Assembly (NCBI GenBank): GCA_023078555.1
Contig: CM041197.1
Coordinates: 7,658,842 to 7,722,841, forward strand
DNA length: 64,000 bases
Direction of reading: 5' to 3'
DNA from: Ulva prolifera
Taxonomy: Eukaryota > Chlorophyta > Ulvophyceae > Ulvales > Ulvaceae
The position numbers and the translations under genes are program-made. Shown here in pieces: positions 1-50,543 of this stretch (position 1 is the stretch's first letter; each line of letters begins with the position of its first letter). The notes beneath the pieces are model-generated. The model made no database searches. It was not told the DNA's origin and saw only the letters and a list, made by a program, of their open reading frames with translations.

Positions 1-117
1 GGTTCCACTGACCGCTCGCCCAGCATCCCTGCCACCGCGCCCCTTCCCTGCTTGAACAGCGCCATGCTGTCCCTGCCACCGTGCGCCGACTTGCGTGACG
101 CCTGCTCCGGCCTGCAG

Positions 118-1942
118 AAGGGCGAGTGGGTGACGCTGGACCTGCCCTTCGAGGACTTCCAGCCGGTCTTCCGCGCCAAGGTGCAACGCTCCGCGCCACC
201 ACTCGACCCGACACGCATCTCATCAGCACAGTTCATGCTCTCCAAGTTCGAGTACGACGGCGCCCTCAACCCCAGCTTCTCGCCGGGGCTCTTTGAGCTG
301 CCGATCGCGGAGCTCTCGGCGTACCTCCCGCATGCATGCCCGCCGCGCTTCGTGCACATTTCGTCTGCGGGCGCAACCCGTCCGAACCGACCAGGTGTGA
401 TGCCTCACAAGAAACCCCCCATGCATGCGGGACGTGTACATGTTGCGAGAGCACAGGGTGTGACTGTGCCGCATGCATGTTGACCTGAGATGTCCACAGA
501 TTGCGAGTGCATAGGGTGTGCCACACGCATGATGCACGAACCACGCAGCCGGGCACGTCTGCACAGACTGTGCGCATCGGGCAGCGTGCTCTCCGCCACG
601 TGAACGCCGCTGCGCTGGGTCACTCTGGCGGTGCGTGCAAGTGGGCCATGCGGCGCTGTCGGAGGTGGCTGCAGTCTTGCTGCCATGGCGTTTCTGTGGC
701 CGAGATGCATGGCGGCGGCCTCCGCGGTGGTCGCATCTCCCGGCGTCCTCCTGTTCACAGACGCACACCGCTCATGCATGTCACACATGTGTGCAAACAT
801 GCGCGTTGTCCAGAACGGGCTGCAGTGCTCGCACGCACCACACGGCCACTCTATCACCAGGACGAGCATGTTTGAGCGGTGTGCTGGCAGTTGTTATGTC
901 AGCACCGGCTGCCGCGGCGCTCACGGCCGTGCGGTGCAGGCATAAACATCGAGGAGGAACCGCCGGCGGTCCGCATGAACGACATGCTCGGCGGCATCCT
1001 CACCTACAAGCTCGCCGGCGAGGACCTTGTGCGGGACTGCGGCGTGCCGTTCGCGGTCGTGCGGCCGACGGCGCTCACGGAAGAGCCCGAGGGCATGCCG
1101 GTCAAGCTCGAGCAGGGCGACACCATCCGGGTGCGCCTCTTGACCGCGACCGCCCTCCTCCCCCTCCCCCGGCCTGCACTTGACTTGTGTGCATGCGTTA
1201 CACACAATCTAAGTGTACTATACTTTCAACGCATCTCTAGTCGACGAACGAGTGCTCCACGGCTGGTGGCAGAGATGTGGCTACGATCTCACAGCTGAAG
1301 GTGGACAGCTGGAGGTGAAAGTGGTAGATTTCTGTTGACTATGCCACGTGCCCGCCCGCTAGGTGGCCGGCCCTGTCCATTTCAGGGCCTTCACTGTCTG
1401 TTCTGTGACAGTGCTGGAATGGATGGCCAGCGCTACATCAATTGAATTAGTGAACAATGGCGGACCTCTCCTGTGAGCGCTTTGGACTGTTATCAGGCGC
1501 ATCTTTTCTCCTGGCTGCAGCACCGGTGAGGTCTGCCCGCCACCCTATCTGCGCAGCCCACCGACTGATTGCTTGGCCACATGGAGAGACGTGTCATGCA
1601 TGCGTACATATCTGCATAACATGCGGAGTTCTGCAGGGCAAGATAAGCCGGGAGGACGTTTCGGACCTGTGCATCAGTCTGCTCAACTCAAAGGCCGCCG
1701 CCAACACCACCTTCGAGGTCACTTCGACCATCGCATTCTCCGACCCGTGGACCGGCTGCGAGAGCAGCGGCGGCGAGTGGCCACGGGGGGCCGGCGCGGC
1801 GGGCCGCGACTGGGAGCGGGAGCTGCGGCAAGCGAAGCTTGTGCCGGGCGTCACCGGCAAAACGATTGACGGGGTGTATACCGGCACGGAGCCGGAGGCG
1901 GAGGCCGCGGCAAAGGCAGACCGCGAGGTCGCGGCTGCATGA
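118..1942 (+). CDS. CIA30 domain / NAD(P)-binding SDR protein, 3' part (5' end outside window)
   Basis: Three exons: 118-394, 940-1130 and 1637-1942. Phases match (1, then 0) and the stop is TGA at 1940-1942. Exon 1 starts after a CTGCAG acceptor and encodes the end of a CIA30-type domain (KGEWVTLDLPFEDFQPVFRA, then a gap, then GLFELPIAELSAYL). It runs into the SDR/NmrA-like strand FVHISSAGATRPNRPG. Exons 2 and 3 continue the Rossmann-like part (EEEPPAVRMNDMLGGILTYK, VPFAVVRPTALTEEPEG, QGDTIR-GKISREDVSDLC). Family knowledge: this CIA30-plus-SDR arrangement occurs in plastid proteins of plants and algae and in cyanobacteria. The exact reaction is not established, although CIA30 was named after complex I assembly factor 30. 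The nucleotide-binding glycine motif and any transit peptide must lie upstream. The last 60 or so residues are Ala/Glu-rich and look lineage-specific. Confidence 0.85.
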
Positions 1943-4680: not shown

Positions 4681-7600
4681 ATGATCTGGCTTGCGATTGT
4701 CACTGCTTTGGTGGCGCTTCAAATAGATGGAACGCTGTCAAAGTGCATCGGAGCCACTTGTAGTGAAAATGAAGCAAGCGCAAAGGCCAGTGGCTTGCTG
4801 GGCGCAGAAGCGAACACATGCCAAGGACGCGACCGGAGTTTCGCATACAATCCGGAATGGAAGGTGCGGTCACAATTGATGCGTGATACTGCATTGCGTT
4901 GTTGGTGAAGCAATCATCGGTCATGCCCTCGACCTTGCCGATCACCTGCAACAGGGCTTGAATTCTTTTGAAATATGCAGACGGAGCTGCATTCCGAGCT
5001 GCTGACCATGTCATGGTCTGGGGGGGACGACCAATGGGTTTGGGCGATCACCACTGGCGCAGCAGACGAGTACTCACAGAACCAGTTTCACCACGTGTAC
5101 TGGTCTGACAACTACGGCAAGAAGTTTGTAGATAAGTTTTCAGAGCTCAAAAAGCTCGTGAAGAGCAAGCCCGACGGTGGTCAGGATGATACCATGGACA
5201 ATCTCAATGCCAGCATCAAGGCTGTCATCGTCCATGCCACAAACCCGCAGAAGGTGATTCTATGGGGAGAAGGGCAGTATCTGTTTATTAGCGAAACTGC
5301 TGGCGCGTCTTTCGAGATTGTGGATGTGCCCCCAGACACGTTTGGCATGTCTCATCAGACACGCCCGCATCCCACACAGCCTGACTGGCTTCTTTCCATG
5401 GCATACCGCAACTCTTGCTACAAGGGCGACATCCTCGGCGACTGTGCGATGGACCTCTGGCTGTCGAAGGACTTCGGGCGGAGCTGGGAGAACCTGACAG
5501 CTAAGACGAAGGGCAAGCTGTCAGGCTTCATCGACTTTGACTGGGGCTACCACACAGCAGACCCGAAGTACAAGAGCCTCTTCAAAGAGACCACGATCAT
5601 CGCGACCGGCCACACCCAGAAGTACAGGTCCAGGCTCGACATCGTGGCGGAGGACATCAGCCTGTTCCGCTCAGACGATGACTTCAACACGTTTGAGAAG
5701 CTCGCGAGCTGTGGTGCTGCCTTCGAGCTCATTGCAGGCCAGGTGTGTGCCCTTCTGCGCTGTGTCTTTCGCTGGAACCCCACCGTCACTCTGCTGGCAT
5801 CTGTAGCTCTGTGTGAACACTTGCCTCGGTGAGCGTGTGCGCTCACCTGTCTCACCTGTTGATATGCATGTCTCTCATGAACTTACATCGATTTGCCGGG
5901 AGCAACTGATGCGCATCATAGCGATAAATGCTCGTGGTAGTGCACGATGTGGCACATCCCAGACGCTGCGGCCAGCAATCCCTTCCCTGCCCTGCCATGC
6001 ATGCCCTGACCGGTGCACCAGGCTGACCCGTAGCCCCCTCTTGGACCCCCAGTAGCACCCACATGCCCCTGCATCAACAACGGCAGCAGCCCTGTGCATC
6101 AGGCCACTCCACATACCTACCTGTCCCTAGCCTCTGCTGCCTCCGTAGCCCTCCCCCCCTCCCCAACACCTGTCCCCGGCACGGCCTCGCATCGTCAGCA
6201 ACACAAAGTTTGACAGGCCATCTGCTGTGCCTGGATGGCGGCACCCATGCTGTCTGTACATGCACCCATGCTGTCTGTACATGCACCCATGCTGTCTGTA
6301 CATTCAATGGCAGACCAAAGGTCCGCCTAGCTCAGCGGCCCCAGCATGCCTCGCCAACTCCCCTTCCCCACACCAGCTGACTGGAACCCCCCGCGCCTGC
6401 AGCTGTTCTTCGTGCACCCGGACATCTGCAAGGTCGACGTGTGGGGCCGCTCGGTGAGCCCCCCGGACTCGCGCCGCAACGCACTCTCCCTCTATGTCAG
6501 CAGCGACGGCCACCACTTCAGCAAGGTGTGCCTGCCGACGGACCTCACGGACTCGGCGTACACGATGATCAGCACGCAGGACGGCCGCGGCGCCTTCATG
6601 ATCGCTGACCACTCGGACGACAACGCCGCCGTCAGCAACCTGTGCGTCCCCCTCACGCACAACCGATAACCGTGTCATCTGCAAAGCGGGAACTAGACAC
6701 ACATCGTCCCAGGCACGCTGGTGTATTTGTGTGTATGCATCATTAAGTAGTCGCGTCCTCAGGGACATTCACACCTTTCAATTCCGACACCGAACCTGTA
6801 TGTACGCGCGGCTGCGATGCATGCGTCCCGTGTGAATGCCACCGGCGCCCATGCTCACCTGAAGCTTGGTGTTCAATGTGTTCATCACCCTCCTTGTCCA
6901 ACGCGGCTCAGTAGCGGCTTGCCAGCGCTCTTGTCGCTTTGTGGCGACAGGGGTCCTCCAGGCGCCACGCCTGTCCCCCCAGTTCTGTCCCTGCTGCAAG
7001 AGGCTTTCAACACACGAGGGCTGCCCTCGAGGCGCCGCGCAGCACTGACGGCGGCGCTCGCACACGCATGCATGCATGCAGGTATGCGAACGGCAACATC
7101 GCGGAGCTCTACACGCTCTCCCTGCGCAACGTGCACTTCGGGTACGACCGCAGCTCGAAGCCGGACATCATGGCGCTGCGGCCGATCCCCGGCCGGTACA
7201 TCGCCAACGCGCTCGAGAGCACGTCGACCGTGCTGCCCGGCCGCATCAACGACCTCGACATGTCGGCCGTGCAGGTCACCAAGGTCACCCACAACGGCGG
7301 CGCCTCCTGGGTGCGCCCGCCCCCGCCCCCACTCCCTCACTCGCAGCCATTCCGCGGCACTGCTGTGTCTATCTTGGCAGCTCGTAGATACGACTGCCTG
7401 TTCGCATGGGAACCGTTCCACAGCGCCACTTGCAGCAGTGCATCTGAGCGTGTTTGCACAGTGGTCTGCCTCTCCCGCAGGCACCTGCTCGCCTTTTCGT
7501 AGTCCATCTGCTGCATTGCGATTTGTGCCTCTGGCTCTGTTGAGGTGACCGCTGGGTTTAAAATGATGCCTTGTTTCTGCGCTGCTCTTGTGCCATGCCG

Positions 7601-13051: not shown

Positions 13052-16000
13052 CTAGTCCACGACGATGAACTCGATGTCTTCAAAGCCCATGCGCGCCTTG
13101 ACCACGGTGTACACCTCCACCTCAGGCACCTCGATGTACCGCCTCATGCCTTTCCCTGGGATCTCGATTTCCGTCTCTTTGCCACGCAGCGCGGGGGGTA
13201 CCTTCTGCGATGGCCCCGCCGCCGTGTCCTTCGGTGCCGCAGCCGCCGCCTTGGGCGCTGCCGCAGCCTCCTGCGGCGCGGCGGCGGCCGGCGGAGGTGC
13301 GCTCAGGTTGCCAGCGGCCGCGCCAACGGCCGCCCCAGCGAGGGCCGCCCCCGCAGGGGCCTTGTCCTTCGCGGGCATGCCTGCACTGCCAGAGGGCGCT
13401 GAGGGTGGAAGGGTGGTGGTGGGGGGAGGGGGGCTGGTTGGGGGCTTCGTGGATGGCGCCGAAGATGAGCTAGACGCTGAGGAGCCAGAGCTACCGCTGG
13501 ATGCTGAGCTGGCGCTGGACGCTGAGCTGGCGCCGCTGTTGCTGGACTGCTGGGAGGAGGCGCTGGATATGCTACTGGCTGCGCTTTCGTTGCGAGGAAT
13601 GGACTGAGACTGAGCATTGTTGCTGGGGGGGTTCGCGGGGGGATTATTGGAGGGGGTACTAGTGCCGGGGGCGCTGGCTTTCGAAGGCTCCGGCGCAGAT
13701 GCCTTGGCTGGCTCCGCTGGAGTCGCCTTGACGGGCTCCGATGTAGACGCCTTGGCAGGCTGTGCCGAATTCGACTTAGCAGGCTCTGCTGTAGACGCCT
13801 TGGCAGGCTCCGCTTTGGGAGGCTCCACTGTGGAGGCCTTTGTGGCTACGGGTGGCGCACTGCTAGAGGCTGGCTTGGAGGCATCGGTGCTGGATTGGGC
13901 GGGCGCACCAGGGGGAGCCGCGCTGGGCTTTGCTGGGGGAGGCTGGGAGTCTGCACTAGGGGTGGGGGTAGGGGGGGGAGTAGCCGGCGCAGTGGCCGCG
14001 CTGCTGGAAGAGATCGCACCCTGAGCCTGCGGCGGGCTGCTCTGCGCCGGCGCGCCCTTGCCGGGCCCCTCCTTGGCCAGCTCAGCCTTGGGGCCCGTGA
14101 CCTTGGGCACCTGTGGGGGGAGGGTGGCTGTGGGGTCGGGCTTTTTGATCGGCGGCGCGTCGCGCTCTGCCGCCTGTGCGAGGTCAAACGCCTTGGCGTA
14201 TTTCTCATGCAAGTCGGCGCTGCCACCGCGTGCTCCCGTGCCGGCCTTCCCGGCGTCACTGGCGGCTGTGGCGGCCGATGCTGCAGGTACCTGTGCGGAC
14301 GCTTCGGCCGCTGGCGCGGCGGTGGCCGCCGGCGCCCGTGCTGACACACCCCCACCCCCTGACCCCGGGGGCCCCCCACTGATACCACCACCGCCTCCAC
14401 CACCACTTCCGCCGCCACTGCCACCGCTGCCTGGAGGGGATGAACCCCCAGCTGCAGCTGGAACCTTCTGGCTGCTTTCATCGCTGTCTTTCTTGTTCTC
14501 CTCCTTTGGCTTCTCGGCCTTGACGACATTCTTGCTGTCGCTCTTAGGCTCCTCCTTCTTGCCCTCTGCGTTCTTCTTCTCATCTTTCGCATCTACCCGG
14601 GCCTCCTCCTTCCTGGCCTCCTTCTTCTCCTCCTTGCTGCTGGAAACAGCCTTGTCCTCCTTCTTCTCTTCCTTTTTCGGCTCGTCCTTTTTCCCTTCCT
14701 CCTTCTTAACCCCCTCCTTGCTGCCAGTCACAGCTTTGTCCTCCTTCTTCGGCTCATCTTTCTTTGCCTCCTCCTTCTCGTCTTTGCTGCCGGTCGCAGC
14801 CTTGTCCTCCTTCTTCTCTTCCTTTTTCGTCTCGTCCTTCTTTCCCTCCTCCTTCTTCACCCCCTCCTTGCTACCAGTCACAGCTTTGTCCCCCTTCTTC
14901 TCCTCCTTCTTCTCCTCCTTCTTCGTTTCATCCTTCTTTCCCTCATCCTTTTTTAACCCCTCTTTGCTGCCAGTCACAGTCTTGTCCTCCTTTTTCTCCT
15001 CCTTCTTGTCCTCCTTCTTCTTCTCCTCCAGGACACCAGTCACCTTCTTCTCCTCCTTCGTTTCACTCTTCACATCATCCTTCTTCTTTTCATCTACTAC
15101 ACCACTCACACCCTTTTCCTCCCTTTTCTCCTCCTTCTTTTCACCCTTCACATCGTCCTTTTTGTTCTCTTCCTTGGCACCAGCCACACCCTTGTCCTCC
15201 TTCTTCTCCTCCTTTTTCTCAGCCTTCTCCTTCTCCTTTACCTCCTCCTTCACCACACCCTTCACCCCGTCCTTCCCGCCCTCCTCCTTGCCACCGGGCG
15301 CCGCCCTCTTCTCCAGCGGCAGCACCATCTCTTGCCCAGGGGCCTGCTGCAGTGACGGCGGCGCCACCAACGGCGCTGCCGCCCCAGGTGGCGGGGCCAC
15401 CAACGCGGCCGTCGCCGCGGCCGCCGCGGCCACCGCAGCCGCCGACGCAACCCCGCCGTCCTTGCTCTTCCCTTCCGCCGTGCCCATCGCCGCAGCTGCC
15501 CCTCCGCCGTCGTCACGCTTCGCCTCCCCCTTCACCTCCAGCTTCTCCTCGGCCTTCGGAGCCGCGGCCTTGTCCCCTCCAGACTTGGCCTGCCCACCCA
15601 CCTTGCCGGCGGCGGCCTTCTCCTCCTGCAGCGCCTGCTCGAGAGCCTTGCCAGACAACAGGCGGCCGAGCTTGTCAGATGCTTCGGACACGGACCGCGA
15701 GATCTTGCCGCTCGTCTCGCGCGTCCAAGACGCCGACCGCTGCGCCGCCTCCACGGCCGCGCCCGCGACCTGTTCGCCCTCGCTGCCCCCGGCCGCCACG
15801 GCCGCCGCGAGCTCGCCAGGCGCGTCAAACGCGCTCTGCCCGAGCGACGCAAACGTGTTGGCCGTGCCCGCGCCGAGCTGCTTGCCGGCGTCGGCGAACT
15901 GCGACGGCAGCGAGCGCTCGCCGGCTCGCGCCGCGGCGCGCTTCGCGGCCGCCTCGACAGCGATCGGCGGCGCGTTGGCGGTCTTGGCAAACTCGCGCAG

Positions 16001-19000
16001 CCCGAAGAAGGAGACCTCGGAGTAGATGATGCCGAGCGACACGACGAGCGCGCCCATGATCGCGACCCTGCATGGCGCAGGCAGATCAATACTGCAGTGC
16101 ACTGGCGGCCGGCCGGCCGGGCCCCCGCACATGATGCCACTGGGCAGCCGGGCATTGAATGCAGATTCACCACGACTCGACTGCAACCAGAACCAGTGCC
16201 TCGTTCCAACAAAGCCACGCTGAGTCCGCTGTGGTCGTTGGGGATGACGGCTGGACTCGCCCGAGCTCCAGAACAACACATAACAGATGCGCACAGAAGC
16301 CTCACGGAGAGCTACGTCTGCATATGGCATGAGGCAGTTCAACAGTCCATGGAGATCTGCACGCATGGGGGCAAGCAGCAGCTACAGGAAAGAAAGCCGC
16401 GGCCGGGGCGCACATCACGTTGCCCTCAAACTCTTTGCCACTGTCCCACTTGCTGCTGTCCACCTCCGCCACCACCTTCTCCTTCCCACCCTTCTCGGCC
16501 TTGGCCGCCGCCGGCCTCAGGCCCGGCAGCGCGCCCAGCCCCGCAAGCAGCTTCGGAGGGCCGCCCCCGGACGCCTTCGGAGAGGCCGCTTTCGGAGACC
16601 CAAAGCCCTTCTTATCGCCGGCGTCTTTCGCCACGGCTGAAGCCGCCACCGCTGGCTTGCCGCGAGAGCCCTTCTTCGCGGCCTTGGCCTTCTTGCGCTT
16701 GCGCTCCTTCTCCGCCGCGAGGGCCTCCGCACGCCGCAGCCGATCCTCCTCCGCCTTGCGCGCAGCCTCCGCCCGCGCCGCCTTGGCCGCCGCGGCCTTC
16801 TCACGTGCCTCTGCAAGCGCCGCCTCGCGGCGCGCCGCCTGCGCCTTGGCCGCCGCAGCCTCCGCCTCCGCGCGCGCCGAGGCCGCCATTTTCTCCTCCT
16901 CCGCACGCGCCGCTGCGGCCTTCCGCGTCGCCTCCTCCTCCCTCTCCCGTGCCTGAGCGGCCGCGCGCGCCTTGTCCGCCGCCACGCGCGCCGCCTCCTC
17001 CTCGCGCTGCCGCTTCTCGGCCTCCTCCGTCGCGGCCGCCGCGCGCTCCGCCATCGCCCGCTTCTCTGCCGCAATGCGCTCCTTCGCCACCCGCTCCTCC
17101 TCCTCGCGAGCGCGGATCTTGGCCTCCGCAGCCTCCACCTCGCGCCGCTTCGCGGCCACCTTCTCCGCAAGAGCCACCACCTCCGCGGCGTCGCTGCGCC
17201 GCCGCTCGTCGCTGCGTGGCACCCCCGTTGCATCGCTGCGCCGGCGGTCCTGCTGCCGCCGCATCTTGGCGTTCTGCGATGCGCGCCGCGCGGCCGCCTG
17301 CTGCGCGACGAGCCGCCGCCGTGCCTCCTCCGGGTCCTCACGCCCCCTGTCGTCAACACGCTCGTCGGCCCGCTCGAAGCGCTCCTCCTCCTCCTCGGAC
17401 GAGGGGTCCTTTGTCGGCATGCCGCCCTCCTTGACCTCCGCGGCAGCGCGGCGCCCGCGCGACGCCTCGGCGAGCCGCCGCCGGTCGGCGCCGGAGGCGC
17501 CCTTCACAGCCGCGGCCGCGGCTGCGGCTGCCGCCGCGGCCGTCGACGTGACGGCCTCGCGGCTGCGCGTGAGGCTCGCCTGCGCGCTCGCGATCGCCGC
17601 GCGCAGCCCCGCGCCGTCGCCCCGGCGCTCCTCCTCCTCGTCATCGCTGTCGCCCTCGAGCGACGTGCGCAGGACGTCGACGCTCTCGCGCATCGCGGCT
17701 CCGACGGCCGCGCCGCGCGCGCCCGAGGCGCGCCCGAGGCGGGACGAGCCGCTCTGCGCAAGCGCGGAGTCGGGGGGCACGTCGGCGACGTCGGAGAGCA
17801 CGCGGCGCATCTCGTCGAGCGCGTCCTCCTGGATCGAGGCCTCGTCGTCGCTGTCGGTGAAGGCAACGGGCGGTACGTCGGCGGGGGTGGAGAGGCAAAG
17901 GCGCAGCCGCGGGTTCGCGATGCCGACGCGCACGTCGACGACGTTGTTCGGGCCGTCCTGCACACGCGCACGCCGACCGTCAACACTCTGTCATCACCGC
18001 CGCACGCGATCGCCGCACGGCAGCGTGTCGACAATTCCACGTCCATGAAGCAGCGTTTGGGTGCAGATGGTTCGCGCAACGGCCGGAATGAGGCTCTACC
18101 CGCGTCCTCGGTTGATGGTGCCGGACACAACCGTGGGCAGTGGTCTTGTTGCGGTGCGGGTCGTGCGCACGGACCCTGCGGCACTGCCTGCCTCTTCACC
18201 TCGATCCTTGTATAACGAAATCAAAGCACCGCCGGCGCGATTGCGCTGCGGTGAGCAACCAGCACGCAGCGCGGCGCAACACACCTGCCACACGGGGTTG
18301 CTCCCGTCCTTGTCGACCTCGACGAGCTTCATCTCGACCGTGTCGGCCGCCGGCAGGCGCACGGTGACGCTGCTGCCGACGTCGTCCTGGCCGCGGCGGC
18401 CGAGCACGCCGCCGACGAGCGGCCGCATCACCGGCGCCGCGTCGAGCTCCCAGCCGCCGAGCGCCGCGCAGCTGCCGACGACGCGCACCTGCCGGCCCGG
18501 CGGCGGCGCGGCGGCGCAGAGCTCGACCTCGTACACGCCGGCGTCGATGGCGTTGGCGGTGGCGGCAGCGATGTGCGCTGCGTCGAGCACCGCCGCGGCG
18601 TCCGCCTGCAAGGCCTGTGTCCGATCAAAACATCTACTGTGGAGTGATAGCGGTGTCGCAGGTTGCTGCAGGTACGCGCAGCTGCCCAACAACGTGCGAA
18701 TCCTGGCGCCAGATCAGATTTGGCGCATGCGCGTCAATCGTGCGTTGGCCCATGCACGTATCACATCGCGGCTCGAGAACAAGCGGTTTTGGCAAACGAC
18801 AGCTGCAGCGCTCGCCCAAGCGACACCACACCACAAGTGCAGCACTTGGCAAGCAGAATGTGCGGTGGTGCCGACACACATCCGCCGGTGGCCATGGGAG
18901 ACTCGCGCAGCGGCAGCGCCAGAACAACCCAGCCCGCCCAGGGATGAGCTGCCCGCTGAGGCATCAGCTCCGCCCCAGCACACCCAGTCAGCACCGCCCC

Positions 19001-20032
19001 ACCCGAGCACCGTGCCATACCAACGCCCAAGCCCAGAGCACAGGCTGAACACACACGCATGCATGCGCCGCGGGCGGCCGGCGGCGCGCACCTGCAGCTC
19101 CTCAGGGGTCGACTGCTCGACGGCCTCGCCCTCGCCAAACGCGAGGCTCACGCGCATCGCGCCGCCCGCGGCGCCGGTCGTGATGACGCGGTTCGGGCCG
19201 TCCTCCCAGAGGAAGTCCTCCGGGCCGGCGAGCTGGCCGTCGCCGCGCACGCGCACGACCTTGAACGTCGCGGTCGTGTCGGGGGGCAGGCAGCGCAGGC
19301 GGCGGAAGGCGCGGTCGCGGGCGTACAGCAGCGTCGGCGCCGCCGCGACGTTCCACGCGCCGAGCTCCGGGAGGTCGCCGACGATCTTGAGGTCGTCAAA
19401 CGGCGGCACCTGCAGCCACGGGGAGGGGCTTGCCGCACGCACACCTCGAGTGTGATGCAGGGGGGGGGCTCTCAAAGACAACGCAAGCAATGGGCAATAA
19501 GTGGGAAGGGATCACAGCCGCTGACAATGCTGTACTGGACAGGCGGATGGGTCGCAGGCGCGACCGCATGTGCGGTGGCAGTGCTGAGCTGCTGCAGTGT
19601 GGGACCGGGCCACCCCCCTCGAGCAACGGCATGCGTGTGGTGGGTGGACGCGGGTAGCGCTGGACGCCTCCAGCCGTGGGCAGTGGATGTGCGAAGGGGT
19701 GATCAGCAGATCGGAATCTCTCGCCTGAGGAACTGTGTGTACATTCATGCATGCGCCGTAGGAGGTAAGGTGGCAGGTACGAGGGGGGGCACAGAGAAAT
19801 CGCCGGTGGTGGGGGCAGCCTGTGCGCTCTCAGCCGGGCTGGCGTGGGCGGCAGGAGGCACCCACGGGGCTGGCACGCTCTGCAGGCTGCCTGGAGCTCC
19901 AAGACTGGCCCCCCCAACATCAAATTGGGGCCGAGGGCCCAGGGACGAGTTCAAGCAAAGAGTGGGGATCAGTAGATTCAGCAGGCTGCCCACACACGCA
20001 GCATTCGCGGATTCATGAATCATCTGCGTCAT
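13052..20032 (-). CDS. Tandem CBM20 starch-binding, coiled-coil, single-TM, Lys/Glu-repeat protein
   Basis: Minus-strand exons: 20032-19781 (start exon, tentative), 19409-19092, 18614-18285, 17957-16414, 16067-13052 (TAG). Phases match throughout, giving about 1819 residues. Exon 2 encodes CBM20 number 1 (DLKIVGDLPELGAWN and WEDGPNRV). Exons 3-4 encode CBM20 number 2 (VVGSCAALGGWELD and VWQ-DGPNNVV). Both keep the starch-contacting Trp positions. Exon 4 continues with an acidic Ser/Asp stretch and a long Ala/Glu/Arg/Lys coiled coil (about 17400-16690). A membrane helix spans the last junction (VMVAIMGALVVSLGIIY). Exon 5 adds an Ala-rich amphipathic stretch, Lys/Glu repeats (about 15260-14480), Gly, Pro and Ser-rich spacers, and a compact C-terminus ending MGFEDIEFIVVD. 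Inference: one end binds starch or another glucan and the protein is anchored in a membrane. The exon 3 acceptor could also be used at 18605. The first exon and plastid targeting are unproven. Confidence 0.78.
14480..15260 (-). repeat. Protein-coding tandem Lys/Glu repeats
   Basis: Inside the last exon of the CBM20 gene, units of roughly 30-45 codons recur. They alternate a VTGSKEG- or VSG-like seed with KKEEGKKDE and KKEEKKED blocks. At least six seeds are visible. Aromatic residues are essentially absent, so this looks like an extended charged spacer. Copies differ in length and sequence, which suggests slippage or unequal exchange. Confidence 0.85.
18177..18214 (-). repeat. Dispersed 40-bp repeat (R2), copy 1
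   Basis: Minus strand reads TATACAAGGATCGAGG, then AGGCAGGCAGTGCCGCAG. It matches the R2 consensus of a TACAAGGAC block followed by a GGCAGGTAGCACCGCG-like block. It lies in the intron between CBM20-gene exons 3 and 4 and is one of the more diverged copies. Confidence 0.5.
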
Positions 20033-22674
20033 ATCGATCGTCTATGCTGTAGCAGTGACGCTAGGCTGTCCATCCCACTCCATCCGCCTTGCTGTCGTGG
20101 ATTGAGTTTGGCTGTGCCAAAGAAAAGGATCTGTGTTGAGACAGGTCATTTACAATTTGTTCAGATTTAGAGTTGGGCCTGCCGAATTCTTCAGCATGCT
20201 TTCAAATGTCTCGCTACTCCATAGTTTCCGCTTAAGAGATAGGTGCAGTGTGGGCAAGTTGCAGATCAAGTACGAAGCAGTCATGACGAGGCATCATGCC
20301 AGCACGCTCTACAATCTGATTATGCATAACTGCTTTCTGGACCCGTGCCAGTTGCAAGAGATGTGAAGATGCGATAAAAATCGCGAAGCAGAGGAGCCAC
20401 GACTCGGATAAGGGACAGGAACACGACGAATGCCAACGTACGCCGTGGTGCTCCGACACGATCGTCAGAACATAGTGCAAGATACTTTCCGCGTCTCCAA
20501 TGAATTTACAGTCGATTCGATTCTCATCAAGGACAAAAAATTTGCTGCGATTGCAGGTTCGGTGTGCACACCAGTTGCCTTCCATCATTCAGCCCACAGT
20601 TGGAGCGATACCAACGGCCGATACAAATATTCGTATAAGCACGAGTCAAGTACGCTCTACGTTGTTGTTGCTTCTCATGGAACTGGAACAATACGCAGCG
20701 CTGCGCAAAAAGCACTGCCGAGCGCATTGACACGCAGACAACGAGTCGTGCATGTTGTGCACTTTTCTACATCGTCAGTCCTCCAATAATTTGTAAATTG
20801 AACATGCCGTCTACAAATTCGTCAGCGTGCGAAGCAGGAGGCATCTCAGCACAGCAAAGCTACTTCGTCCGTGTCATAGTCGCAGAGGTCAGCCGCTGAG
20901 GCAGCGCTATTGATGCATTTTAGCCTAGAACATACGAGTGGCAGAACGCACGTCACCAGTCACTGAGAAAGAAATTGTGCATCCCGTGCGAGAGTCCAGT
21001 CCAGTCCTGTCGCCCACCTCTCGTGTGGGCGCACTGACAGCAGCCAGCTTACCGCACTCCTTACGAGATTTACCAGGGCCCACATTGATATTCTTCTTCG
21101 CGGGATGTGTAGTTCGTGTACGCCTTTGCTGACGTGCGGGCCCTGTCACGCCAGACGGTCTGCCCGTGCTGTTGGAGCTCGCATGCGCGTGCATTTGCAG
21201 AAGCGCCTGTCAGCCACGCACAATGATTCAATTATATGCAATCACTAATGCTGTTTGGAGGTATTCAATGAGGGCGCGCTCTATGTAGGTCCCAACATGT
21301 GTATGTAGCTGGCGTACAACGCGTGCGCAATACAAGCAGTCCTCGCAACAGCAAGCCAGCGTATGTACCGGCAGCGTGACTGGCCACTTATGTTGTACTC
21401 TCTCTGTGTGGATGTTGCCTTTCAACGACGTACACGTGATGTGTCGTGGGCAAACCGCGCACGGGATCGTGTTGGCCCAGCGAATCCTGTACAGCAGTCA
21501 TGCATGCATCCCATCGGCAGCGCCGACCTCGATGCAGCGTTATCTCGACCCTCGCAAGGCAGCCCGCACGGCCCAGGTCCACGTCGCAAACACCTGCACG
21601 ACTGCGTACATCTTTCCACCTTTGTCACTGAAGCAGTCGGCGTGATCACCAATGCTGCAACGTCACTTCCTCGATCGGCAGCGTCGTTTCATGCCTGCTG
21701 AGGGCTTTCAACACCCGGCGAATATCACAGCCTTCTCGTCCCCGCAGCTAGTGTGAGCGGACATTCGCAAATCGTGTAGCTGAAACATCATATATCTATA
21801 CTTATCCCTACTTTTGTTGCCCGCCAGTTTGACGGATCGGCCATCAATTCCAAGTCTGTGCTGGCAGCAGAAGCGGACGCAACTGCCAGTTCTATACCAA
21901 CGGCCATCGCTGGTCTTCGCTCCAGGTGCGGACAAAGCCGCCTGCCACTTGAAACTGCGTATCCACATACCAATTCTGGCTTCAACTCGCTGCATTTGGC
22001 TCCTGCGTCAACCGCTCCAAGCCGAACTGAGTACTTGCGGGGCTCTCCCGGCGAGCACTGCACGCCCAACCGCCATGTCAACCTTTCCAAGCTGTAAACA
22101 AAGCAAACCCTCCTCCATAGCTGTTGCCTTATGGTCTGAGAAGCGTAGCTCCGAAGTCCGGGCCTGTGCACGCCCGGCAGGTGTCACTCGGCCCGACGTC
22201 ACAGAACAGTGACTGCGGATGAGTAAGTTGCTCGTCCGAACTTGCAGAGAGGGAACTTAGGTAGTATGTGCGCTGGGTAGGCGGCTGTCTGTGATTCACT
22301 GTGCAAACGCGCCCTCGATCCAGTCATCCCGGCCCACGCTGTCGGCAGTTGGCAGAGACCATAACAGCCTGCACAATGCCGCAGAACAGCCATCTTAACT
22401 CCTGCACACCTGCATTTAGCAACATTGTGGTCATATTGTATCGATTTATCTCGACCTTGACGCGAAAGCTGCGTGCACCACGCCTAGTCTGGCACACGCA
22501 GTGGCACGGCCATCGAGCGAACGCGAAGCTTGGCCACAACACCACAACATCTTACGTTTGCATAAGCTCACGGCCTTCGTGTCTATAAGCCTCGTTCTGT
22601 GATCCTCGTCGTCACCTCATGCAGACATACCCGATGCCCTCATGCAGGACCTGCCTTCGAGGCACCTCAACACC
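20033..22674. other. Intergenic region between divergent genes
   Basis: Mid-GC DNA with normal CpG content between the starts of the CBM20 gene (-) and the Gly/His/Tyr-rich gene (+). A 119-codon + frame at 20430-20789 is open, but an equally long frame overlaps it on the other strand and neither resembles a known family. I could not support a gene here. Confidence 0.5.
22584..22589 (+). promoter_or_regulatory. Candidate TATA box
   Basis: TATAAG in the context GTCTATAAGCC, about 90 bases upstream of the ATG at 22675. The spacing suits a short 5' UTR. There is no independent evidence for the transcription start. Confidence 0.35.
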
Positions 22675-23511
22675 ATGGCTTCCCCAGCACTGGCCCCTCA
22701 GCCCGCGGTGACGGCATCTGCCTACCCTCCGATCGACTTCGCCACCGGTCAGCCAGCCGCGCCACTGTCCAGTGCCGCCGTGCCCCCGACTCCAGACCCG
22801 CCCTCCGACCCCACACCCGCAGTCCCAGTCGAGAGCACTCCTCTGGCAGAGCCCCCCGCCTCGCTGGCAGGCCGCGCCGACAACGACCCCGCAAACCTGC
22901 ACACCCTGCCGTCCATCCTCGCGTCGCCCACGGCCGATTCGTTCCTTGACGCCGACGGCACCGCGACCGCCGCAAAATCGCCAGGCGGCACAGCCGGCAA
23001 AGCGATGAAGCCTCCACCGGGGTACCCCGGGGCTGCCGAGAACGGCGCGGGGGCAGAGAAGGGCGAGGAGGGGTGGGAGTCAGGCAGCGACGCCGAGGCG
23101 GGGGACGGCACGCGGGGGGACCTGTCGCGCGGCGGCGGAGGATTCTTCTCGCGTCTGAAGCGCTTCTTCAAGAAGGAGCTCGTACGCTGCGTGTGCGGCA
23201 ACATGGGCCGGCCGCACCACGGCGGCTACGGCCGCCCTGGCCGCTACAGACCCCGCCCCCACGGCCACCACGGCGGCTACGGCCATCATGGCCACCACGG
23301 CCGCCCCGGCCGCCACGGCCGACATGGCCGCCCCCGCCCGCACGGCCACCACAACGGCGGCTACGGCCACAACGGTGGCTACGGCGGCGGCTATGGCGGC
23401 CACGGCGGCGGCTACGGCCCCCAGGGCGGCTACGGCCCCCCAGGCCAGGGCCCGACAGCGTACAGCCTGCCAGGGTACCGAAGCACGCCGCCGCCCGGAT
23501 ATCCCGCGTAA
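22675..23511 (+). CDS. Pro/Ala-rich N-terminus with Gly/His/Tyr-rich tail, single exon
   Basis: 278 residues. ATG at 22675 is chosen for its strong initiation context (CACCATGG); an in-frame upstream frame reaches 22642. Residues 1-120 are Pro/Ala/Thr-rich and probably disordered. An acidic stretch (about 125-150) is followed at 157-169 by FFSRLKRFFKKEL, a basic amphipathic segment that could bind a membrane or nucleic acid. Residues 177-278 are almost only Gly, His, Tyr, Arg and Pro in GGYG, GHHG and GRHG repeats, ending PPPGYPA. There is no signal peptide or obvious folded domain. PPGYPG-type motifs recall the plant XYPPX glycine-rich proteins, a composition-level similarity only. The His content could bind metal ions and the Tyr/Arg/Gly content could favour condensate formation; both are inference. 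The codons are extremely GC-rich. Confidence 0.7.
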   Translation: MASPALAPQPAVTASAYPPIDFATGQPAAPLSSAAVPPTPDPPSDPTPAVPVESTPLAEPPASLAGRADNDPANLHTLPSILASPTADSFLDADGTATAAKSPGGTAGKAMKPPPGYPGAAENGAGAEKGEEGWESGSDAEAGDGTRGDLSRGGGGFFSRLKRFFKKELVRCVCGNMGRPHHGGYGRPGRYRPRPHGHHGGYGHHGHHGRPGRHGRHGRPRPHGHHNGGYGHNGGYGGGYGGHGGGYGPQGGYGPPGQGPTAYSLPGYRSTPPPGYPA

Positions 23512-28379: not shown

Positions 28380-31300
28380 TCACACATACTCCCCGTCATC
28401 ACTCACGCTCCCCGCGACGCTCCCCGCGGCCTGCTCAGACCGCGGCGGCAGCTCATCCGCGGACCGCAGCAGCGACTGCGCCTGGAACAGCTTGAACTGC
28501 TCCTCCGGCGGCAGCGGGATGTTGACGTCTATCGTGCTGAAGGCCGAGCCGGAGCGCGCAAGCGAGGAGGCCATCGTTTCATGGAGTGCAATGAGCGCCG
28601 CGTCCGGCAGCGTGGACAACGCGGTGCGCATCGGCGAGTCATGCATGGGGGAGCCGGGCACCGGGGAGGTGCGGAACGGGGACGATGGGATGGAGGCCAC
28701 AGGCGAGGAGAGCATCGGCGGCCGGCCCGCGGCGGCGCCATGCATGGGGGAGCCATCAAGCGGCGCGCTGTGCATGCGCGGCATGGTGGTTGAGAAGTGG
28801 GGGGCGGTGGGGGTGAGGCAGAAAGGGGGCAGCGAGAGGTTGACAGAGACGGTGTCGTCGGGGGAGCTGCTGCGCCCGGAGACGGGCCAGGGGTTGTGCT
28901 TGGGGGAGATGCTGGGGCGGCGCGGGGGGGTGCCCATGGGCGAGTGGTCCGGGGAGCGGACGGCGCCGGCGGGGCGCACGGCTGGGAAGGTCACGGACAC
29001 GGTGTCCGAGGCGTCGGGGGAGAGCGGCGAGCCAGTGCGCGGCGACGCGCCGCGCGCGGCGGCGGCCGCGAGCGCCACGGCCGCGGCCTCGGCCGCAGCG
29101 GCGCCGCGCGCCGGCGTGCGGCCCTGCCGCGCGATCGCGGCCGACGCCGACGCCGACGGCGGTAGGCTGCTGCGCGCCGAGAGCGGCCCCGGGAACACAA
29201 CGGAGATCGAGCCGCCGTCATCGCCGTCGTCACCGTCTGTGATCGCCGCCTGGTGCGAGCGTCCGGAGCGCGGCCCGCCGGCGATCGACGCTGACGCCGC
29301 GCCGCCGCCCGCAGCCAGCACACGCGAGCCGTCGCTGTCACTGATCGCGCCCCGCGACCGCGCCGAGCTCATCGTCTCCATCCGCCGCAGCGACCGCGGC
29401 GCCGGTGGGGCGATCCCCGATCGCGAAAAGTCCAGCGACGGCAGCTGAAACGACCCCTCGCCCCCCGCGCTGTCCTGCCGAGGCAACGCCGGCCGGTGTC
29501 CACCGGGGCCGCCGGTGCGCCACTGCGAGAACGTCGGTGGCGGCTGCGGCCGCCGAACCCCCCCGCTCGCCTCAAAATTGCTGTCGCGGCTCTGAATCAG
29601 GCTCCCCCGCGACGAAGACACAGTCGACGAGTAGCTCTGTACCTTGAGCGCCGCGTGGCTATCCGCCGTGCCGCCGCTGCGCGGCCCGTCCGCGCGCGCC
29701 GCCGGGATGCTCGCCGCCGCCGCCGGAGCAAATTCCGAGTCCTCAGCCGCCAGCAGCTCGAGGAACCCTGGCGGCGCCGACGGCAGGCGGCGGATGCGCG
29801 CCGTGCTCCCCAGGTCAGCACTCGCAGACTCTGCGCCCGCGAGCATCCACCCCTCCTGCCCCGCCGACATCGGCGGCAGCGATATGAAAAGCTTGTCTGG
29901 CAGCATGCGTCCGGAGGACGGACGCCCGCGCTCCAGCCCCTTCCGCGTGTCATCCCCCACCTCCTTCGGCAGCAGATCCGACAGCGAACCAGAGTCCATC
30001 ACAGTCGTTTCATGGATGGTCATCGGGCCGGTCCATGCGCGCCGGAACGGCCGGATGGTTTCGGGTGGCAATATGTCAGCGTGGCGGAACTCGCCGGGGG
30101 CGCCGGAAGCTGCGCGGGGGGCCAGGGTCTTGGAGGGACCGTCATCCTTGGTCGCGAGGGCGCCGAGGCCGGCACAGGAGCCGCGACGGCGGTAGTGGCG
30201 CACGGCGAGCGCGGCGGCGGCAAGGGCCGCGGTGAGGATGAGCGTGAGCACCACCGGCAGCACCCAGGCCTTGGAGGCGCTCTTCGCCGCCGTGCCGGGT
30301 GAAGCTGCCTGTGCCTGACGCAGTACCTGCACCAGACCATGCATGGTGAGAGGTTGTGTGCAACGATGGAGCTGCTCGGCCAGTGCCTCCACATTCATGC
30401 GGGATGGGGCGTGCAATACGGTGTCAATGGCCACCCTTATGCAGAACCCGTTCGGCGAGTCACGACATTGACGTGGTACGTTCACGTCCGTTGGAAACCG
30501 GCAAATTTTCATGCTGTGCGCTGGGCGTGCTGTGTGCTGGGGCACAGCGCAGCGCACCTGCAGCGCGCCGACGATCCAGGCCTCATCGGGGGAGAGCAGC
30601 TGCCGGCCGCCGGCGAGCGCGCCAGGTGGCGCGGCGGCAGCCGCCTCCACCGGCGCGATCGACCGCATCATAGGCCCCCCGCCGGGCCCCCAGGCCTTTA
30701 CATCGCTGAGGGCGGCGCCGTCTGCGGCATCGACGACAAGGACAGTGTTCGCAGCCCCCCCTCGCGCGTAGATGTCGGTGCGGCGGTGGCCGCCGAAGGC
30801 TGTGCCGTTGAGGACGAGGGTGTTGCGGGCGGCGTTGGTGGCGGAGAGGAACACGCCGTCGCCGGCGCCGACCGCACGGTTGTTCGTGAGGCTACAGGCG
30901 GTCAGAGTCGCGTGCGATGGACCCTGCAGGTACACCGCCCCGCCATCCCTGCACGCACCCACCAACGCGTGTCAGAGAATTGATACCTCATAATTCCCCC
31001 CAGGTATTGTATGGGTCGGATCGGACCGGCCAGGTTGTGGAAGTGAAGCCCCACACCGAGGAGTGCAGGGAGCGTGGGATGCGTGGAAGGCCGCAGAGGG
31101 TAGCTGGGCAGCAGGTGAGGAGCAAGGACAACAGCTGCGGGGGAGAGGCAAGGCAGGGGGGCACCCACCTTGGAGCAGACACACAAGCCCTCCTCCAGGG
31201 TTAGGGGCGTGTGGGGTGATGGTGTGTTACAAGGACAGCAAGCAAGGCAGGTAGCACCGCGAGCAGCAACCAGGGGAACCTAACACCACGCAACAAGCCA

Positions 31301-48900: not shown

Positions 48901-50543
48901 TCCAGCGACCGAGCAGGGGCCGGGAGCGCAGGCCTTTGCACGGGCGCGCACACGCCTCGAGCGACAGCCAGGCGGGAGCGGAGGGACGCACCTCGCTGCA
49001 GCTGCGCCAGAGCCGCTGCCACGGCGGTGCCTGTGTGCTCTGCACTCTCGGGGTACCCGTCGGGCGCCTGCTCCGTGTCATCCGTACCCGATGCACCGCC
49101 GCAATCCGCCGCTGAGTGCGTGCCCGTGCCTGCAGAATCTCTGTTTGGCCCACCCAGCTGCTGCGGTGCGGCTGTGTGCTGCTCAGGGGATTCCATGCTG
49201 CGCAGCGCCGGTGAGTAGCCGCCGAACGCATGCAGGGTGAAGGCACCGGCGGAGACGCTGCCGTGGGACGCCAGCTTTGAGGATGTGACTGCTGAGACGG
49301 AGTCCCGGCTGGCTGGGTCTGCGGGCAGCGGCTCCCGTGGAGCAGGTGGGGTCCAGTTGCTGGGGACGTCGACGACCACAGCAGCGGGTGAAGGTGGTCC
49401 TGCGGTCTTGGGGGTCACTGAGAACGTTTCTGGGCGTAGAAGCGCCACGGGGGCGATGTCGTTGCTGTCGATGGTGTGGATGGAATGGCCCTGCATGGCA
49501 TCGGACTGGTGGCAGCTGGAATACCAGCAGGATCTGCTAGTAGCAGCAGCGTGGCTGCAGTGGCCAGTTCTGCAAACTGTGGAGAGCTCTAAGAGAAGAG
49601 TGGTGCAGCCGTGGTCATTGGTCTGTGCACTCGGTGGCGGTGGATGGAGGCCTGGTGTCAGCATGTTGCAGCATAAGAGCAGGCTGGGAAGCACGGCTGC
49701 ACCTGGAGGGAGATCCGCCCGTGCGAAAACATTGGGCCATCTAGAGTCAAGGTCTCGAACTCACCGCCTTCTCCACAGGCGTTGCAGCCAAACTTGTCCG
49801 CGAGACCAACAAGGACATGCTGCACTTGTGCAAGTGATTGGCCCAAATGCTTCTGGCTGAGTCCTAGGGACGCTACTTTCACGAGGATCGAGTGCAGTCC
49901 TGCATCCACCATGCCCTGCAGAATGAACGCTTGACTGCCTCATCCCAGGCATCACTAGGGGCTGATCCATACCATACACGAGAACGAGCAACAGGGTGGA
50001 CCTCCAATCGCAATTTGAGTGCTTCCCTGGGACGCAGGTCAGTGACAGTGATTGCAAAAGATCGTCCGGGGTCTCCGAGCGAAGACGTCATACCTGCAGC
50101 AGCGTTACTTGCGGCTGATGCCAGAGATACGCGAGGGAGACCAGGCCCAGTCGGCCACAAACGTTCTCAACTCGAAGGCGTTGATAGTCAGATGCAATTG
50201 CACCAGACGCGACGCCCTGGACATCTTGATGCTTGCTCTTGACAAACGCGAGTAGCGCGTGCAAGTCCTCAACCTCGTCACCCTCTGCCACATCGTATTG
50301 CAGATCCCTGGCTATGGACTTGCCAGAGAAAGATTTGCGGTACAAGGGGACGTTCATACATGCTGGATACAGCGGCAACATTTGGTGTCCGACAGTCTGG
50401 AAGCAGTAACTGTCGAGGTCGTCAGGGCCGCTGGCCTCGGGATGTAGATTTGCGAGAGCGATCAGCTCATGCCCATGCTCCTGGCACTTCAAGATATTGA
50501 AACATGAGTCCTTGCCACCGGAAACAAGAGCCACGAACTTCAT
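37819..50543 (-). CDS. DPH6: Diphthine--ammonia ligase fused to two RidA-like domains
   Basis: Minus-strand exons: 50543-50094, 49915-49703, 49490-48992, 47787-47387, 39814-39295, 38558-37819 (TAG). All are phase-matched (0,0,1,0,1), giving 940 residues. Residues 1-210 are the ATP-dependent amidating domain: PP-loop SGGKDS (8-13), GAIASDYQRLRVENVCGRLG and CGEGGEFETLTLD (197-209). This enzyme makes the amide of diphthamide on eEF2. A Pro/Ser/Thr-rich stretch (exon 3) precedes the first RidA-like domain (GWQAVLYVHLLLRHMPHF, ARACVAAPLPPG). The second runs from SEWAPASIGPYSQAAVWNG and FMAGQIPLDP across a 7.57-kb intron to LLVMVPALPRGCDVEVQVIA. The domain-1 sequence keeps the RidA-type Arg before the LP motif; domain 2 lacks it there. 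The same architecture is known in yeast, plants and animals. Exon 6 is Gly/Ala-rich and poorly conserved, so its end is less certain. ATG 50543 immediately precedes the PP-loop strand. Confidence 0.88.
38823..39036. repeat. Direct repeat pair in DPH6 intron 5
   Basis: ACCAAAGCAATTCACTCTGC (38823) recurs as ACCAAGCAATTCACTCTGC (39012), each followed by AGAGC, about 190 bases apart. It may mark a duplicated segment or an insertion target duplication. No open frame or terminal inverted repeat was found between them. Confidence 0.7.
39942..39971 (+). repeat. Poly-C run (30 C)
   Basis: Uninterrupted homopolymer about 130 bases upstream (in transcript orientation) of the DPH6 exon 5 acceptor, reading as poly-G in the transcript. 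The length may be affected by sequencing. Confidence 0.85.
40542..40703 (-). CDS. Possible 53-residue hydrophobic small ORF in DPH6 intron
   Basis: A complete ATG-to-TGA frame on the same strand as DPH6, within its large intron. Residues 13-37 form a hydrophobic segment (NVLTCVQLALVIAAA) after a Cys-containing start and before a basic tail. There is no homologue I recognise and no promoter or splice support. It is probably a chance frame. Confidence 0.12.
   Translation of the reverse strand: MCVGGMCQTDRAVLTAIARAVNVLTCVQLALVIAAAMHERSRFRGRCSPHRKL
41275..41314 (+). repeat. Dispersed 40-bp repeat (R2), copy 5
   Basis: ATGTTGCAAGGACAAAGCG, then AAGGCAAACAACAGTGCG. A diverged member in the DPH6 large intron. 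Confidence 0.45.
44111..44157 (-). repeat. Dispersed 40-bp repeat (R2), copy 6
   Basis: Minus strand: GTGTTGCAAGGACGAAGTCG, then GGGCACTGCCGG after a spacer. A diverged member about 350 bases from copy 7, same orientation. Confidence 0.45.
44504..44547 (-). repeat. Dispersed 40-bp repeat (R2), copy 7
   Basis: Minus strand: GTGTGTTACACGGACAAAGG, then AAGGCGGGCAGCACCGCG. It is followed by CACCC/ACACCC-rich sequence, as after copies 2 and 3. Confidence 0.75.
46247..46447 (+). CDS. Possible 66-residue small membrane protein ORF in DPH6 intron
   Basis: ATG at 46247. Residues 1-20 are polar (Ser/Glu/Lys), followed by ILWWCVVAYVLVVTSMYVA, a convincing hydrophobic helix, then a short Arg/Cys-containing tail. 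It is antisense to DPH6, and codon third positions are less GC-biased than in the clear genes. No family is recognised and there is no promoter evidence. It could be a chance frame or a relic of an inserted element. Confidence 0.18.
   Translation: MESSPAETSTKVEAESAPRRILWWCVVAYVLVVTSMYVASSLGRSLRCTSLEEAFAGRCVTWTQRV
47117..47362 (-). mobile_element. tRNA-derived SINE, copy C
   Basis: On the minus strand it begins about 25 bases past the exon 4 donor of DPH6. It carries a B-box GTGGGTTCGATTC (an excellent match to the pol III consensus), then GCGTGCGCTTTGGGGAATC and the shared body, ending in AAATTTAGATTTAC and a TTTACTTTGCTTTAC tail at 47117. The A-box end is less clear. Confidence 0.85.

Follow-up and report, generated by a model that had tools for sequence, protein, structure and literature searches.

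The minus strand of a 64,000-nucleotide stretch of Ulva prolifera contig CM041197.1 (the window, numbered from its first letter) appears to carry a gene for one large protein with two starch-binding CBM20 domains. With a proposed first exon, the full predicted protein model has 1816 residues. We tentatively read it as a membrane-associated starch scaffold, with the two CBM20 domains near the N terminus and one hydrophobic, likely membrane-spanning helix near the middle of the chain. Starch binding is strongly implied, a role as a membrane anchor is plausible, and a role at the pyrenoid is possible, the pyrenoid being one of several possible locations in the plastid. We infer plastid import, membrane insertion, topology and starch positioning from the predicted protein. 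The protein appears to be a variant of the algal starch proteins that combine CBM20 with a helical region, and its new feature would be the CBM20 pair together with a likely membrane helix. Searches of open-licence papers turned up no description of a plastid protein that joins two CBM20 domains to a membrane span.

CBM20 domains, charged region and hydrophobic helix

The full model matches the Pfam family CBM20 (PF00686) with 69.1 bits over two stretches (cut-off 23.3), and no other Pfam family at an E value of 0.01. A search of NCBIfam gave no match. The CBM20 score is 71.1 bits for a 358-residue piece, and 40.3 and 25.6 bits for the two domains searched exon by exon in the genome (88.9 Mb in 44 contigs), with matches at 19164-19397 and 18285-18506. 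The first domain (CBM20-1) comprises residues 72-163, and the second (CBM20-2) adjoins it after a linker and also aligns to solved glucoamylase chains. The Trp, Lys and Trp residues that we take to form glucan site 1 of CBM20 are kept in both domains (GAW/FKVV/LWEDG and GGW/MKLV/VWQDG), and binding of starch by the CBM20 pair is strongly implied because of this conservation. The two alpha-glucan-binding CBM20 modules of an earlier, sequence-only reading of this DNA are therefore retained.

A charged region of 220 residues (residues 507-726, at 16671..17330) lies beyond the CBM20 pair. It has 35% Ala and is rich in Arg, Glu and Lys, a composition that favors a helix, and the region is presumed to be helical. 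It had been described as a coiled coil, a reading that was set aside as unsupported, the heptad excess of aliphatic residues having a z score of 1.3 (local 1.0) relative to shuffled sequences. In the charged region of a likely paralogue on contig C6 (see below), the corresponding z scores are -1.7 and -3.0. The residues I, L, V, M, F, Y and W number 8 per 100 here and 7 in C6. A salt-bridged single helix is not supported either, because pairs of Glu with Lys/Arg at i+4 have z scores of 1.9 here and -5.1 in C6. Both the heptad and the i+4 tests are simple comparisons with shuffled sequence.

The hydrophobic helix is located at residues ~811-835, following the charged region. Residues 813-835 are coded by 15998..16066, and the two preceding residues are coded at or across the exon junction. 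The Kyte-Doolittle average of the helix is 2.03 over 19 residues. On the biological hydrophobicity scale, its best 17-mer has a value of -1.12, and a level of -1.1 or below was reached in none of 300 shuffles. It is the only one of the three best 17-mer stretches in the protein that is below zero. In the genome, the region of this helix has no second copy besides its own gene, at an E value of 10. However, on the biological scale the sum is positive over 19 residues (1.67) and over 21 (2.70). At these lengths the helix is matched by an alanine-rich stretch near residue 1018 (1.31 and 2.79), which also passes the Kyte-Doolittle test. For these reasons the helix, at residues 811-833, likely but not certainly spans a membrane. 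The transmembrane segment that had been proposed from the sequence is in this way borne out by its Kyte-Doolittle and 17-mer values and is put in question by the longer sums.

The positive sums are one of several observations that weigh against a membrane-anchored starch scaffold. The hydrophobic stretch of the C6 gene has a best 17-mer of +2.14, compared to -1.12 in the window gene (on the same scale). The charges flanking the helix do not fix its topology, being -1 on the N-terminal and -1 on the C-terminal side over 15 residues, and -1 and +2 over 30 residues. A single membrane span would place the tail of ~980 residues on the opposite side of the membrane from the CBM20 domains. Structure predictions made without alignments are unusable, with a predicted local distance difference test (pLDDT) score of 40.9 for the first CBM20 exon and 51.3 for the membrane-helix region. 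The GC content at third codon positions (GC3) is 0.56 in the proposed first exon, compared to 0.97 in the next exon. Finally, the motif [D/N]W[R/K]xx[L/I/V/A], which we take to be the canonical Rubisco-binding motif, has no match in the 1816 residues. It also has none in the 1371-residue model of the C6 paralogue.

Among known proteins, SAGA2, BSG1, LCI9 and Cre09.g394510 of Chlamydomonas come closest. BSG1 (Cre02.g091750) has 792 residues and is described as having a transit peptide, a CBM20 domain (72-150) and a coiled coil (302-380), in this order (PMC6374437). The order of transit peptide, N-terminal CBM20 and helical region is the same as in the window protein. In comparison, BSG1 has one CBM20 domain and a predicted coiled coil, and the word "transmembrane" is found nowhere in the main text of that paper (PMC6374437). 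According to the same text, loss of BSG1 gives abnormal granules, and relatives are reported only in close algae (PMC6374437). LCI9 (Cre09.g394473) has two starch-binding domains, as here, and is placed by the cited text at the gaps between the starch plates of the pyrenoid; it differs in being a predicted glucosidase (PMC10473226).

These two proteins, the C6 paralogue with no clear membrane span, the positive sums over 19 and 21 residues, and the awkward topology of a single span all favor a stromal starch-granule protein of the BSG1 or LCI9 kind, free of a membrane anchor. Such a protein would tune the number or turnover of granules; its CBM20 pair would coat them, and its helix would pack on another protein or lie flat against the surface of a membrane. 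We consider this a serious but doubtful alternative, as the helix passes the Kyte-Doolittle test and is alone among the three best 17-mers in being below zero, at a level that shuffling did not reproduce. The membrane-associated scaffold is retained as the tentative reading in the following sections.

Exon structure and the first exon

Four minus-strand exons, from 19409 to the stop codon at 13052, can be joined in phase, as computed from the DNA. The boundaries at 19409, 16414, 16067 and 13052 given by the sequence-only reading were recovered independently. The exon at 19092..19409 codes for the remainder of CBM20-1. It is preceded by a CTGCAG acceptor and followed by a GTGCGC donor at 19091. 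The exon at 18285..18614 codes for the inter-domain linker and most of CBM20-2, and an alternative acceptor would move its start to 18605. The exon at 16414..17957, which joins in a consistent phase, contains the end of CBM20-2 (DGPNN), an acidic linker, the charged region and a basic linker. The last exon (13052..16067) is an open frame with an in-phase join, and its 1005 codons, including the stop codon at 13054-13052, agree with the approximately 1000 residues first noted. The Lys/Glu repeats described for this part are real, as overlapping tandem arrays with units of 12-150 bases were found between 14616 and 15251 by Tandem Repeats Finder. The C-terminal 50 residues (13052..13204, KVPPALRG...FIVVD) are non-repetitive and have no Pfam match, nor a second match in a six-frame search of the genome at an E value of 10.

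The CBM20 exons and the membrane-helix exon very probably form one gene. The gap between them (16413-16068) is merely 346 bases long. Its GC content by codon position is flat whichever frame is taken (0.57-0.64), and each of the three frames has a stop codon. Its donor, GTGCGC, is in the required phase and is the identical hexamer to that of intron 1, and GC3 is 0.89 before the gap and 0.88 after it. Two adjacent genes would instead comprise a CBM20 and charged-region gene ending at 16302, and a second gene, starting near an ATG at 16057, for a protein whose N-terminal segment is hydrophobic and whose body is rich in Lys and Glu. The frame of exon 16414..17957 does continue for 112 bases beyond the donor to a stop codon, an in-frame ATG is present at 16057 directly past the acceptor of the last exon, and the donor sequence GTGCGY is frequent (16 minus-strand sites between 13000 and 21300). 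Nonetheless, the short, flat gap and the matched GC3 make this arrangement improbable.

The sequence TGTAA, which marks the ends of genes in green algae, is also absent from the gap, though few would be expected in such a short stretch. It is found 82 bases after the stop codon of the window gene, compared to 99 bases for a PWD-like gene and 233 bases for a chlorophyll a/b-binding (LHC) gene. It is weak as an end signal, because it is 359 bases distant from the last C6 exon (and 524 bases past the long C6 frame).

An additional exon is needed upstream, since CBM20-1 otherwise begins only at position 17 of the profile. With a filter fixed beforehand, a single candidate was obtained, with its donor at 20951. 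This proposed first coding exon (20952..21194, 81 residues) carries a transit-peptide-like leader followed by the first β-strand of CBM20-1 (CTISFSVTGD). Between 22600 and 19410 there are 189 GT sites. At 112 of them a phase-0 frame is open for at least 20 residues, and a first-strand pattern, written after the candidate had been seen, fits one of the 112, the same candidate. When its last 29 residues are joined, the CBM20-1 score is 44.5 bits and the match starts at profile position 2; all nine randomly drawn control joins scored 40.1-41.0 bits. The score is 43.4 bits with the full 81-residue exon, 40.9 bits for exon 19092..19409 alone and 40.0 bits with its direct extension. A start at 20032, as had been suggested, was rejected, as the open frame containing this position lowers the score to 38.9 bits.

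The strongest independent evidence for this exon is the position of its intron, which agrees with introns of the C6 paralogue in both CBM20 codon and phase. The sole in-frame ATG of the exon is at 21194. The first 60 residues contain 12 Lys/Arg, 12 Ser/Thr and 2 Asp/Glu, a composition that fits plastid import, and the leader looks like a plastid transit peptide, from which import would follow. Along 13052-21194, GC3 drops from 0.98 over the CBM20 part to 0.67 over the Pro/Ser tail; it is 0.79 at the very end, and 0.56 in the proposed first exon.

Related genes and known starch proteins

Eight CBM20 stretches were found in the genome and were assigned to five genes. Besides the window gene, these are the C6 gene, a DPE2-like and a PWD/GWD3-like gene (enzyme names assigned by eye), and a gene for a single-domain protein. 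The C6 gene (C6:4859500-4869400, minus strand 8013-4579 of that piece) codes for two CBM20 domains, an acidic linker and an Ala/Glu/Lys region of 290 residues. Both of its CBM20 domains have a phase-0 intron after the first strand, with splice sites read by eye, in the same alignment column as the proposed 20951 intron. The tandem CBM20 domains, the charged region and the shared intron codon and phase make the two genes likely paralogues. Exons further downstream in C6, joined on phase alone, carry a Gly/Ala hydrophobic stretch. A membrane span is not supported there, given its best 17-mer, and the exons beyond the CBM20 and charged part may belong to a separate gene. This downstream part also weakly matches a chain of a viral fusion protein (E 0.011), which was taken as a chance helix match. 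A search of viral contigs for relatives gave 16 pattern matches and no true relative.

CBM48-type domains were found in six stretches. At C6:4221597-4221851, a coiled-coil-like stretch (by eye) precedes a CBM48-type domain, and the arrangement resembles PTST2/3 by eye. A PTST2/3-type factor is described as undetectable in Chlamydomonas in the text of the 2026 SAGA paper. At C5:1179557-1180200, two CBM48-type stretches are followed by a sequence resembling an HAD-type phosphatase (by eye), an unusual combination.

The chlorophyll a/b-binding family of Pfam matches the genome 38 times. The best of these matches, compared with the Protein Data Bank (PDB), scores highest on two multi-domain chains of 9vfj, LHCI-2 (518 bits in 2 stretches) and LHCI-11 (427 bits in 6), followed by single-length Lhcb/LHCII-type chains at 376 bits or below. 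RbcS matches in four stretches, which lie at two sites. The five PDB chains closest to it, which we presume to be from Chlamydomonas, score 173-176 bits, with the next at 165, and the identity is ~73% as counted by eye. The LHC and RbcS genes point to a green alga. This identity suggests that the alga is not closely related to Chlamydomonas. LCIB-type carbonic anhydrase is represented by 6 stretches at three places (C9:4706539, C1:8448413 and C1:3155147), and starch synthase by 16 stretches at seven places. Together with the CBM20 and CBM48 genes, these matches indicate that the alga metabolises starch and may have a CO2-concentrating mechanism. A search for bestrophin gave no match anywhere and is hence uninformative.

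SAGA2 (Cre09.g394621) is similar to the window protein in having two consecutive CBM20 domains and a large size (~190 kDa, compared to 1816 residues here). The cited texts also describe four Rubisco-binding motifs and predicted coiled coils (PMC13167743, PMC10823261). Its CBM20 pair and a doubled SAGA1 domain are reported there to bind starch, with maltoheptaose or beta-cyclodextrin lowering the binding. In both SAGA1 and SAGA2 the starch-binding part is near the C terminus, whereas the window protein has N-terminal CBM20 domains, neither the canonical motif nor a heptad signal, and one likely membrane helix. Membership in the SAGA family was rejected on two features, the missing canonical motif and the position of the CBM20 domains (CBM20-1 at 72-163 of 1816, with CBM20-2 next to it). 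MITH1, a SAGA1 homologue, is described as pelleting with membranes. A pyrenoid-specific SAGA-type protein, in which a lineage-specific motif would hold Rubisco to the starch sheath, has a poor chance, for although the tandem CBM20 domains, the LCIB-type matches and the 2026 authors' speculation that other algae have functional counterparts with other Rubisco-binding motifs would favor it, the canonical motif is in neither paralogue and the CBM20 domains are at the opposite end.

Cre09.g394510 also has an N-terminal CBM20 domain and a membrane-related C-terminal part, as far as its description goes, but it has one CBM20 and a t-SNARE domain (PMC10473203), and the full window model has no t-SNARE match. 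MFP1 and PTST2 share the tasks proposed here, a membrane anchor with a long helix and glucan binding, in two proteins rather than one (PMC10801857). MFP1 is described as an anchor at thylakoids with an N-terminal anchor and a Tat signal, and starch formation followed when MFP1 was relocated to the inner envelope (PMC10801857). In the window protein the hydrophobic helix follows the charged region. PTST proteins are reported to use CBM48 (PMC6374437), whereas the full model matches CBM20. It also has no GH77 or dikinase domain at an E value of 0.01, different from the DPE2 and PWD types. The animal protein Stbd1 likewise combines CBM20 with a hydrophobic anchor, but it has one CBM20, is small and acts on glycogen in the cytosol. 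The match to its CBM20 domain (8x8k) was weak (E 0.4).

Other features of the window include a CIA30 match at 1-1295 (plus strand), followed by an NAD-binding match under the cut-off, perhaps an HCF173-like protein. A Sortilin/Vps10 domain is located at 4972-5829 (plus), a Diphthamide synthase domain at 50091-50582 (minus) and multicopper oxidase domains at 56033-57686 (plus). Two open frames have no Pfam match, a divergently oriented one at 22603-23508 (plus) with a His/Gly/Tyr-rich C-terminal half, and an 863-codon frame of coding-like composition at 28383-30971 (minus).

Proposed role in starch placement

If the scaffold reading holds, the protein would enter the chloroplast, where its N-terminal CBM20 domains would bind alpha-glucan chains. 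The long charged region would keep the glucan-bound domains at a distance from the membrane, in which the single hydrophobic helix would fix the protein, and the low-complexity tail might recruit partners. The scaffold could then set where granules, and possibly the pyrenoid sheath, start or stay. One chain would do the work that in Arabidopsis is divided between PTST2, which binds glucan, and MFP1, which anchors at the thylakoid, and that the SAGA proteins do in Chlamydomonas. The original suggestion of a plastid starch-granule or pyrenoid anchor agrees in part with these results. The transit-like leader, the CBM20 domains, the LCIB-type matches and the tandem CBM20 domains of SAGA2 are consistent with it, while the missing canonical Rubisco-binding motif, the lack of heptads and the unfixed topology are not in its favor.

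The 2026 SAGA authors consider that SAGA proteins may unite the roles of MFP1 and PTST2. A bolder proposal, which we regard as rather unlikely, is that one polypeptide here unites glucan capture and membrane anchoring (as PTST2 with MFP1, or as a SAGA protein with its membrane-bound partner) and sets the start sites of starch in a green alga not closely related to Chlamydomonas, and that with its paralogue it is the counterpart of SAGA1 and SAGA2 predicted in 2026. The two paralogues are concrete candidates, open to experiment, for placing starch at a pyrenoid or thylakoid beyond Chlamydomonas. Should the helix prove to span a membrane, glucan binding and membrane anchoring could reside in a single protein, a combination that would help efforts to build starch sheaths in the chloroplasts of crops.

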